Source of the DNA: Candidatus Babelota bacterium
GTDB taxonomy: Bacteria; Babelota; Babeliae; Babelales; UASB340
Assembly (NCBI GenBank): GCA_014730005.1
Contig: WJIY01000042.1
Coordinates: 1-35,674 of the forward strand
Length of the DNA: 35,674 bases
Direction of reading: 5' to 3'
In this document: positions 16,567-35,674 of the stretch, piece by piece
Numbering within the stretch: position 1 is the first letter of the stretch
How the letters are laid out: each line of letters begins with the position of its first letter
The notes under the pieces: model-generated
What the model saw: the letters and a program-made list of their open reading frames with translations, nothing else
Database searches by the model: none
What the model was told of the DNA's origin: nothing
Made by a program: the position numbers and the translations under genes

Positions 16567-17592
16567 ATGAAAAATTTTTATATTACATGGTTTTTTATAC
16601 TTGTTTGTATAAGTTTTTTTAAAATTAATTCACAAAAATTTATAGCGAAAATTGAGCCGTTAGATTCTAATAATAGTAAATCGAATAATATTTTTAATGA
16701 GGTTGTACAGGAATCAAAGGAAAATGGATTGCAAGATATGAATAAAAAAAGAATAAGTCCCCAATGGAAAGAAAAAATAGCTGAGCAGATTGATCAAGAT
16801 GTTCAATTAATCAAGCAAATTATTCTTGAGGGTGAGCCAGACAAGGATGAGGTGAGAGATTTTATAAGTTTATTTAAGGAACAAAGATATTGGTTGGATA
16901 AAATGATTACAGGAACCAAATATTTTTTTGATCCTAAATATAACGCTCTTATGCAAAAGAAGGCAGCGTTACAAAGAGTTGCAAAGGCACAAGAAAAAGC
17001 GGATAAATTTTTAAAAGAACTAGTAGATTCTGATGGATTAGAAGAAAATGTTTATAAAAAGTTACGTTTAGTTATTTTGTATGATATTAATTCATTAATT
17101 CAGAATGCTATTGAGACTGGAACAGCTAATAAATTTTCTACTGGAATTTCTGAGCGAAAAATAAAAGAAACGGCAAAAGATGTTTTTCAGGATTATAAGG
17201 ATAAACGGGCTAAAAGCTTAATTATTGAAAATCAAGTAAAATTAGAAATCGATAAAATTGAAAATGAATTAGTCCGAATTAAGCATGAATTAGAAAAACA
17301 AAAATTAGAAACAGAATTAACTGAGAAAAAAATGATAGAAAAGATTGAGAATAAAAATAGAATAATTTTGGAATTAGAAATGCTTTTAGATAAAACAATG
17401 CAAAATATGGAAAAACTCAAAAAAGAAGAAGCATTAAGAACAAAAATGCAACAAGATGAAAAATATAGAAAGATTATAGAAGATAAAAATAAGGAAAACT
17501 TAGATTTACAATTAAAACTTAAAACTTTGCAAAGAAAAGTTTCTGATTTAAAAAATGAATTACAAAAATATAAAACGACAAATGAGGAATAA
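16567..17592 (+). CDS. orphan exported coiled-coil protein
   Basis: Signal-peptide-like N-terminus; AGGAGAAG RBS; long heptad-like C-terminal half (KIENELVRIKHELEKQKLETELTEKKMIEKIENKNRIILELEMLL). Confidence 0.7.
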   Translation: MKNFYITWFFILVCISFFKINSQKFIAKIEPLDSNNSKSNNIFNEVVQESKENGLQDMNKKRISPQWKEKIAEQIDQDVQLIKQIILEGEPDKDEVRDFISLFKEQRYWLDKMITGTKYFFDPKYNALMQKKAALQRVAKAQEKADKFLKELVDSDGLEENVYKKLRLVILYDINSLIQNAIETGTANKFSTGISERKIKETAKDVFQDYKDKRAKSLIIENQVKLEIDKIENELVRIKHELEKQKLETELTEKKMIEKIENKNRIILELEMLLDKTMQNMEKLKKEEALRTKMQQDEKYRKIIEDKNKENLDLQLKLKTLQRKVSDLKNELQKYKTTNEE

Positions 17593-17610
17593 AAAAATAA
17601 GAATAACTAT

Positions 17611-17875
17611 TTAACGCAAACCCGACAGTTGTTTTGTAATAAAATAAGTATAATATTTATAAATTCGCTTCCTTGAGTGATTTTGCAAATACGATATTTT
17701 TTTGATATATTTGCCGCCGTTTCTATTATTATTTGTAATAACGCTATATTTGGCCAAAGATCTATTGTGGATACTTCCGTCCTTGCTAAAGACTACGACG
17801 GAGTATGCAAGATAATATTTTAGTATGAGTAAAATCACTCAGGATGTGCGGTTGAAGAAAATTTTATCTCAGGAT
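17611..17875. repeat. intergenic element copy A (structured, unknown function)
   Basis: Shares boxes TTAAC.CAAAC.CG...GTTTTG, TTATAAA...TGA.TGATTTTGCAAA and ATTACTCAG/ATCACTCAG-like right box with copy B; internal 11-bp inverted repeat 17674-17684/17831-17841; central hairpin 17771-17806. Confidence 0.6.
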
Positions 17876-18046
17876 TAATAGAATAGTTATTTTTGAGATT
17901 ATCAGTTATCGAACTTGCATTATTTAACAAAAATACAATTTGAATAAAATACATTTTTTTTGAACGCCCTATTCACAATGCTTGTTTAGATTTGCGATTT
18001 ATGCTGATCAATGATATATTCATTTCTTAATTATTAGTTGATTATG

Positions 18047-18124: not shown

Positions 18125-19930
18125 GTGAAGTTTAAAATTAATAAATATGTTTTATTTTTATATTCAATTGTATTTAGCTTTAGTTTTATTACAGTTTTTT
18201 CTGAAGATAGTAATACTGCTTTAAAAGCATTAGATAATAATACAAATTTAGTAATATTAAAAAATGCTTTTGAAAATTTAAAAGATTTGGATTATTACAA
18301 TTCAACTAAATTATCTGTGTTGGTTCCAGGAGGAAGGCAGCTTAATCTGGATTGGGGTTTTAAGGGATCTGGAGATATTTTGGAAGCTTTTCCTGATATA
18401 AATATTTCTGTTGTTAATTTGAATAAAGAATTAGATGTTGGTTTATCAGGAAAGGACAACAAATTTAATTGGGCCGTTTTTGCAAAAATAGTTGCTCAAA
18501 ATAAATTTAAAAATTTGTTTCAAAATGAATTACAAGAGTATTTCTCAGGAATATCATGGTTTTTAAGTCCGAAGGCCTCACCTTTAAAAATTTTTGCATT
18601 AAAATTATTTTTATTGTTGAAGCATCCTTTTCCTGATGGATTTGAGTTTAAACGAAAGATAGAAATTTTAAGATTATTATTTAGGCTAAGTCAAAGTAAC
18701 ATTAGTGAAATATCTAATATAAACCGTCCTTTATCTAGCTATTTTCCTAAAGCGTTAGTTCAAATTTTAGAAGATAATGTTTCTGTAGAATGGAGACAAT
18801 TTATTGATCAGGCTTGGAATAGTTTTGCAAAAGGACTCAATGATTATAAATTTAAAAAAGATGGTTCCTATGATAAAGATATATTTGGTAGATATGTAAA
18901 AGGATTTGTTTTTGATAATAATTCTGTTGCACAGGCTTGCTATAATTCTTTATCTAAAAAGATTGGTAATATTTCTGATCTTGATGATGAAATTAGTAAA
19001 ATAGCTGGATCGAAATATGAAATTATAGATTATAGTGATTATGATAAATATGGTGCTTTAAAGAATTATAATTTTATTGGCAGCAAAGATTTTGGACGAA
19101 TGAATATTGAATCAAAAATTGATAATAATATACCTGAACAAATAAAAAAAGTTGTTTTTAGTGTTCATGATTTGCCTGCGGTAATTAAGTTTGAGGAATC
19201 TGATAATAGGATTTGGTTATTATATATTTCTGAAAAATTATATTTTTTAGATTCAATCAAGCTTTTGTGCGCATCATTATTAGATGTCTTTAAAAATTAC
19301 AAGAAGATAAAAGCAACTTTGCCTGAGAATGATTATCAAGAAGATAACAATCAAAACGAAATTAAATTGGCTGAATTCACTGCAAAAAAACAAGATTTAA
19401 ATAATAAAATTAATGCTTTATTCTTAAATTTGCAGGAAGAAAAAAAGAATTTAATAAAGAAAAAGAAAAATAGTACTGGAAGCATATTAGATCTTAATTT
19501 GATAGAAAAATCTCAAGATAAGATTAATGATCTTGAAAAACAAATATCCTCTTTGAAAATTGAATTAATTGAAGTTGAAAAACAGATTAAAATAATTGAA
19601 AAAAATCCGTATGATATTTTTGGAATAAATAATAATTCGGAAAACAAAAAAAATATATTCAACTTTATAATTAACGCCGTTATTAGCAGTCCTGAATTTA
19701 ATGGGATGCTAAAAGATTTAAGTTATAATTCGAAATATTTCAAAGAACTTAAAGAAGATTTGTTCAAAAAGATTGTTTGTGTTTTAAAAAATACAGAGAA
19801 TCTTAAATCTAATTTAGAAATTTATAGATATTTAATATCAACAATTTTACCAGAGTTTAAAGATGAATTTGAAAATATGACAAAGGAACTAGAAGAGCCC
19901 AATTTGTTTTTAAACTTATTGAACGGATAA
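18125..19930 (+). CDS. orphan exported protein, helical C-terminal half
   Basis: GTG start with GGGGAGG RBS; signal peptide (YVLFLYSIVFSFSFITVFSE); coiled-coil around residues 400-500; no recognised domain. Confidence 0.72.
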   Translation: MKFKINKYVLFLYSIVFSFSFITVFSEDSNTALKALDNNTNLVILKNAFENLKDLDYYNSTKLSVLVPGGRQLNLDWGFKGSGDILEAFPDINISVVNLNKELDVGLSGKDNKFNWAVFAKIVAQNKFKNLFQNELQEYFSGISWFLSPKASPLKIFALKLFLLLKHPFPDGFEFKRKIEILRLLFRLSQSNISEISNINRPLSSYFPKALVQILEDNVSVEWRQFIDQAWNSFAKGLNDYKFKKDGSYDKDIFGRYVKGFVFDNNSVAQACYNSLSKKIGNISDLDDEISKIAGSKYEIIDYSDYDKYGALKNYNFIGSKDFGRMNIESKIDNNIPEQIKKVVFSVHDLPAVIKFEESDNRIWLLYISEKLYFLDSIKLLCASLLDVFKNYKKIKATLPENDYQEDNNQNEIKLAEFTAKKQDLNNKINALFLNLQEEKKNLIKKKKNSTGSILDLNLIEKSQDKINDLEKQISSLKIELIEVEKQIKIIEKNPYDIFGINNNSENKKNIFNFIINAVISSPEFNGMLKDLSYNSKYFKELKEDLFKKIVCVLKNTENLKSNLEIYRYLISTILPEFKDEFENMTKELEEPNLFLNLLNG

Positions 19931-35291: not shown

Positions 35292-35315
35292 AATTCGATA
35301 AAAAAATATTTATAA

Positions 35316-35545
35316 TTAACACAAACTCGTAATGTTTTGCAAAATAAATAAACTGTAGAGTTATAAACCTACTTTTCCTGAATGATTTTGCAAACATCAT
35401 ATTCCTGGATTCATCTGTTTTCACAAAAACTATGATGGACAAGCGGATAAAACTTTGCATTCGATATAATCTTTTGATACGTTTATGAAAAGCAAAATTA
35501 CTCAGAATGAACGAGTAAGAAAATTGCATTTAAGTATTACAGGAC
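35316..35545. repeat. intergenic element copy B (diverged relative of 17611-17875)
   Basis: TTAACACAAACTCG...GTTTTGCAAAATAAATAA and TTATAAA...CTGAATGATTTTGCAAA boxes; ATTTTGCAAA box at +69 from TTAAC exactly as in copy A; internal imperfect inverted repeat 35379-35391/35492-35504. Confidence 0.55.
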
Positions 35546-35674
35546 TTTACCTAATGCATAATAGTTTGCTCCAGCAGGTATGATTGAAAATTTTTCATGT
35601 ATGTTTTTTGAATTCTTAAATCCATTAAAACCTGCTCTGTAGATTTTTTCCGTTTGAAAATTTTTTGTTCTTCG
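35537..35674 (-). CDS. possible 3' end of a CDS running off the window edge
   Basis: Open minus-strand frame to window end: RRTKNFQTEKIYRAGFNGFKNSKNIHEKFSIIPAGANYYALGKVL*; not listed in the ORF track (no start in window). Confidence 0.45.
   Translation of the reverse strand, partial: RRTKNFQTEKIYRAGFNGFKNSKNIHEKFSIIPAGANYYALGKVL

Follow-up and report, generated by a model that had tools for sequence, protein, structure and literature searches.

Insertion sequences of the IS982 family begin with AC, follow the end consensus AC(N)6T(N)5TT, and carry inverted repeats of 11-32 bp together with direct repeats of 2-10 bp; the registered elements measure 845-1282 bp (PMC7335449). A short, non-coding element with IS982-like inverted repeats, MITECca01, has been described in Cardinium, where 169 copies of about 240 bp are located mostly between genes in the reduced genome of an intracellular bacterium, and where intact parents (ISCca4) occur in the same genome, so that MITECca01 is thought to be active (PMC9769881).

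In this study we examined an intergenic element present as two diverged copies, A and B, in a window of 35,674 nucleotides (the whole stretch of DNA analysed) from a member of the Dependentiae (Babeliales). The family to which both copies belong resembles the IS982 family (PMC7335449) in its AC start and in the lengths of its inverted and direct repeats, which fall within the published ranges, and the same repeats are found on IS982 elements of related genera. It differs in the lack of a transposase gene and in size, its simple copies in this genome measuring only 161-348 bp. With MITECca01 (PMC9769881) it has in common its shortness, the absence of coding capacity, IS982-like inverted repeats, a mostly intergenic position and the reduced genome of an intracellular bacterium as its setting. 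The differences are that about 33 diverged copies are found here, that the only IS982 genes found in the same genome are broken, that the family contains REP-like and GIY-YIG insertions, and that the host belongs to the Dependentiae and not to the Bacteroidota. Judged from sequence comparison, we put at roughly 0.88 the probability that this is an old MITE specific to its lineage, mobilised in trans by a transposase of the IS982 family and analogous to MITECca01, the nearest published case.

Results and discussion

Boundaries of the two copies in the window

A first-pass annotation of the window had described a set of boxes common to both copies, and all of them were found at the positions and spacings that it gave: TTAAC at 17611 (A) and 35316 (B), ATTTTGCAAA starting 69 bp after TTAAC in both (17680 and 35385), and ACTCAG[G/A]ATG starting at +226 in A (17837) and at +184 in B (35500). 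The arms TGAGTGATTTT and AAAATCACTCA of copy A are likewise exact complements of each other. The central hairpin proposed for A is present but imperfect, since ATACTTCCGTC would need GACGGAAGTAT as its partner and the sequence has GACGGAGTAT; the stretch concerned is missing from most copies of the family. The limits of the element had to be redrawn, as the right-hand box is internal and not an element end. The true right end of copy A lies 45 bp beyond 17875, where the element had been thought to stop, and is marked by an inverted repeat (Table 1), while 35545, the end given for copy B, corresponds to a junction with another insertion sequence and not to an end of the family.

The local alignment of A and B scored 99.5, against 43.9 +/- 6.3 and a maximum of 64 for 500 dinucleotide shuffles of B, so that their likeness is not due to chance. 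The annotation had reasoned that a genuine family should have further copies and should align better than shuffled sequence, and both proved to be the case, with copies at about 33 sites in the genome and the score well above the shuffled maximum. Copy A lies between an unannotated gene on the + strand, with its stop at 17592, and a second + strand gene starting at 18125; the longest chance ORF across it spans 17611-17838 on the - strand.

Table 1. Features of copies A and B and of the insertion sequence that truncates copy B (positions in the window)
Feature	Coordinates	Strand	Remarks
Copy A	17614-17920	+	307-bp MITE with IS982-type ends
Left target-site duplication of copy A, TATTTA	17608-17613	.	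sequence; 6/6 match with right flank
Left terminal inverted repeat of copy A, ACGCAAACCCGACAGTT	17614-17630	+	
Subterminal arm TGAGTGATTTT	17674-17684	+	pairs with 17831-17841
Subterminal arm AAAATCACTCA	17831-17841	+	within internal REP-like palindrome module
Right terminal inverted repeat of copy A, ATGCAAGTTCGATAACT on the - strand	17904-17920	-	
Right target-site duplication of copy A, TATTTA	17921-17926	.	
Copy B	35319-35539	+	left end and middle of the MITE, 3' of tsaD; without right inverted repeat
Left flank of copy B, TAATTA	35313-35318	.	fits TNNNNA; right partner gone with the right end
3' end of IS4/IS701-like insertion sequence (DDE_Tnp_1 transposase)	35539-35674	-	interrupts copy B

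The sequence that follows copy B up to the end of the contig matches, at 97% identity and in reversed orientation, the 3' end of a DDE_Tnp_1 gene located terminally on contig C9; the product of this gene finds its best family matches in IS701/IS4 (hmmscan). The insertion of this other element at about 35540 removed or displaced the right end of copy B. The C9 gene was also considered as the autonomous partner of the MITE and rejected, being IS4/IS701-like with unrelated ends, and it is instead the element that truncates copy B. As the contig ends inside the IS4/IS701-like element, the right edge of the window is an assembly break at a repeat.

A dispersed family in this genome

The genome (1,149,308 bases in 58 contigs, about 95% complete) gave 39 matches with copy A as a query and 49 with a consensus drawn up by eye. 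These correspond to about 33 dispersed sites, a count obtained by searching the sequence around the matches with the left, middle and right parts of the element and merging the pieces by hand. The copies are 65-95% identical to a rough consensus and many are truncated. Their orientation relative to the neighbouring genes varies. At the 32 sites examined for their context, no gene exceeding a chance ORF in size is clearly broken; on contig C18 a truncated copy overlaps the called start of the ORF downstream. Contigs C7 and C56 (L003, L005) have 463 bp in common at their ends (98% identity), a stretch in which a coding region stops and a MITE copy starts; this represents either a segmental duplication or a repeat left unresolved by the assembly.

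An exact search of all GTDB species and of viral contigs, this genome excluded, with a degenerate pattern for the left 29 bp gave no matches, for which reason the MITE looks lineage-specific. Sequence searches of this kind suggest that the family as such is confined to the lineage, whereas its ends have a wider distribution: the inverted-repeat pattern, with at most one mismatch, occurs in 20 of the 101 genomes of the order. Within this genome the same pattern had 20 matches, compared with none for a reversed control. Many of the matches are found no more than about 140 bp from a contig end, which is what multi-copy insertion sequences, by breaking assemblies, would be expected to give. The TsaD protein encoded in the window is 69-71% identical to proteins from Candidatus Dependentiae, Babeliales and TM6 records, which places the genome in that phylum. 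The element was not found behind tsaD in four relatives from the Dependentiae/Babeliales; with TsaD identities of only about 70%, these are too distant for the exact pre-insertion site to be recovered.

Terminal repeats and target-site duplications

The full element is bounded at both ends by 17-bp terminal inverted repeats of the ACGCAAACTCGATAATT type (AACGCAAACTCGATAATT on the left and, on the opposite strand, AATGCAAGTTCGATAACT on the right), and the end pattern of the family is ACGC[A/G]AACTCGATAATT. Ends were placed at AC, which yields 6-bp duplications of the form TNNNNA and the AC start usual for IS982; an earlier placement at AACGC, with a 4-bp duplication, was dropped because a shift of one base on each side gives these 6-bp duplications and AC ends. 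Compared with AC(N)6T(N)5TT, the ACGCAAACTCGATAATT repeat agrees in the AC and in the T at position 9, and has the TT one base later than published. The direct repeats of 6 bp, or 8 bp in one copy, fall inside the IS982 range.

Target-site duplications, which the first-pass annotation had proposed to look for, were assessed in 18 two-ended elements, 12 of them from this genome and the rest from related genera (two being IS982 elements); the set was picked by hand according to its ends with the flanks already seen, and is therefore not blind. Perfect 6-bp duplications flank 10 of these elements, all ten of the form TNNNNA; when the right flanks were shuffled among the elements 20,000 times, perfect duplications numbered 1.6 on average and 7 at most. 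The duplicated sequences are TATTTA, TTAATA, TAATAA, TAATTA, TAACTA, TACCTA and TAAGCA, the last three coming from other genera. Perfect 6-bp duplications are missing in the remaining eight elements; in a further copy, C12b, 8 bp are duplicated (TATTTTAA). When ends were paired automatically under laxer rules, 14 of the 388 resulting pairs showed four-base duplications where 10.9 would be expected; the lack of an excess is explained by chance pairs, which swamped the signal.

The same ends on IS982 elements of relatives

Repeats of this type accompany IS982 transposase genes in several related genomes. A complete IS982 element in G034, 958 bp long, carries an open transposase gene of 283 aa (217.7 bits), ends in ACGCGAACTCGAT/ACGCCAGTTCGAT and is flanked by the duplication TAATTA. 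In G057 (L105) an IS982-family transposase, which runs for 197 aa to the contig end and scores 146.7 bits against NF033520 (cut-off 130), begins just downstream of the repeat. The repeat AACGCGAACTCGATAATT, found also in a copy of our family at C31:34338, opens a region of G024 that contains a broken IS982 transposase gene, the contig ending in the opposite repeat, and in G083 the repeat is again followed by a broken IS982 gene.

The genome under study harbours only broken IS982 genes (C44:6946-7507 and C34:2679-3068), with the ends AACGCGAGTTCGG and AACGTGAGTTCGG (in fuller form, AACGCGAGTTCGGGATAA and AACGTGAGTTCGGGATAA). Their repeats match the MITE over about the first 12 bp only, so that these copies need not be the parent, which we infer from the elements of relatives. 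An intact IS982 element with exactly the ends of the MITE was not found in this genome, which is about 95% complete and assembled in 58 contigs, so that a collapsed intact copy could have been missed. Within the MITE itself, no remains of a transposase could be recognised. The transposase that probably mobilised the family is now broken or unassembled in this genome.

In the probable mechanism, a full-length insertion sequence elsewhere in the cell, bearing the same ends, would have supplied the IS982-family DDE transposase. The enzyme would bind the repeats of the MITE and insert the element at A/T-rich TNNNNA sites, leaving direct repeats of 6 bp. The interior would merely travel along as a passenger, with its REP-like palindromes and the elements that nested in it later. 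The surviving copies lie between genes, mostly just past stop codons, where insertion is presumably least harmful. The copies look old, in view of their divergence from the consensus, their frequent truncation and the presence of broken IS982 genes only, and the activity of the family appears to have been lost. The annotation's suggestion of a MITE-like or decayed mobile element is supported by a multi-copy family that has terminal inverted repeats, target-site duplications and IS982-type ends.

Nested elements inside the family

The interior of the MITE has itself received insertions. Near consensus position 65, short palindromes are inserted in copies on C31, C46, C23 and C25, and a copy on C7 holds a nested element (at about 1640-2320 within locus L002, C7:29499-32291) that has inverted repeats CTATGCATTACCCACATCTTTTGC and a 9-bp duplication, TTACCTTGA. 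The module bounded by CTATGCATTACCCACATCTTTTGC consists of two GC-rich palindromes of 94 bp in opposite orientation with a short GIY-YIG gene between them. A second near copy, whose gene is 91% identical, is located on C34 of the same genome (L158, about 160-735), and decayed remnants occur in L021 and L130. The existence of two near copies and of decayed remnants suggests that the GIY-YIG module is, or formerly was, mobile.

Since palindromic elements, including this module, are nested repeatedly in MITEs at gene 3' ends, we also considered a layered mobile-element system specific to the Dependentiae, in which the MITE family would serve as a landing platform and a donor of stop codons and in which the GIY-YIG module may be mobile. 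We regard such a system as unlikely, although it is less so than the readings discussed below.

Gene 3' ends, structured RNAs and host functions

The placement at gene 3' ends to which the first-pass annotation had drawn attention is real as a statistical tendency. Gaps between element and gene have a median of 35 bp at 3' ends versus 151 bp at 5' ends (one-sided Mann-Whitney P = 0.0006, with gaps treated as independent). The same tendency would, however, arise if insertions survived where a dense genome tolerates them.

This bias is one of the observations in favour of a structured RNA family, or of elements acting at the RNA level, that has been spread or kept at gene 3' ends, as are the long inverted repeats within the element and the folding of copy A, somewhat better than that of shuffled sequences (z -1.97), which is not so for copy B (z -1.00). 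Against it, Rfam gave no match at gathering scores, and RNAalifold on 14 copies found no consensus pairs, which is weak evidence by itself given the gappy alignment. The compensatory changes that the annotation had proposed to seek were not found above the level of shuffles in the two stems that it named, of which TGAGTGATTTT/AAAATCACTCA is complementary in 81.6% of cells across the copies with no covariation. Moreover, the stems sit within a transposon with duplicated targets, the middle of the element is freely deleted and its orientation relative to genes is not constant. We therefore hold an RNA family to be very improbable.

The bias could also reflect domestication, with the insertions working for the host as insulators or terminators at the 3' ends of genes, in line with the annotation's mention of insulators. 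In addition to the shorter 3' gaps, this reading draws on two sites, C2:5621 and C31:55722, at which a TAA stop codon is formed at the junction between target duplication and inverted repeat. Nevertheless, a terminator-like site was not found in the region of copy A, the one region searched, and the copies are strongly diverged and truncated, with no sign of a maintained core. Selection removing insertions near promoters would yield the same 3' bias. As selection against insertions in genes and promoters suffices, the bias requires no host function, and we infer that purifying selection acting in a dense genome is its best explanation. The stems being devoid of covariation and terminator-like sites missing from the copy A region, neither an RNA family nor a terminator is supported, and a role in the service of the host seems to us every bit as improbable as the RNA family. 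The genes at the two sites mentioned above may have acquired a changed C-terminus through the stop codon made by the MITE.

The internal REP-like module

In the least probable reading, the element is a palindromic repeat of the REP/BIME type spread by a RAYT (Y1) and not by a DDE transposase. This reading could appeal to the REP-like hairpin at consensus positions 181-235, which several other genomes of the order contain in the absence of the MITE ends, and to Y1 transposases, which three of four genomes in the same family carry. A search of this genome for a Y1 transposase, however, gave none, and REP elements lack the long terminal inverted repeats and target duplications that the MITE family has. 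In view of the duplications at its ends, this reading is wrong for the element as a whole; it may still hold for the internal module. The likeness to REP/BIME elements (e.g. PMC3733652) lies in an imperfect palindrome of about 45 bp in the interior, which other genomes of the order also have, and the module is best seen as a passenger. The palindrome CCTTTGATACGATTTTGC..GCAAAATCACTCAGGATGA was seen independently of the MITE ends in G001, G020, G018, G016, G003, G026 and G023 (L059-L063, L066, L067).

Conclusions

No earlier account of a MITE family of this kind was found in a search of open-access papers for mobile elements in the Dependentiae or Babeliales, and we offer here a concrete and checkable description of one for this obligately intracellular and mostly uncultured phylum. 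The IS982-type MITE accounts for a set of sequences between genes that might otherwise pass for regulatory RNAs. The parallel with Cardinium suggests that IS982 elements repeatedly yield MITEs in the reduced genomes of intracellular bacteria.
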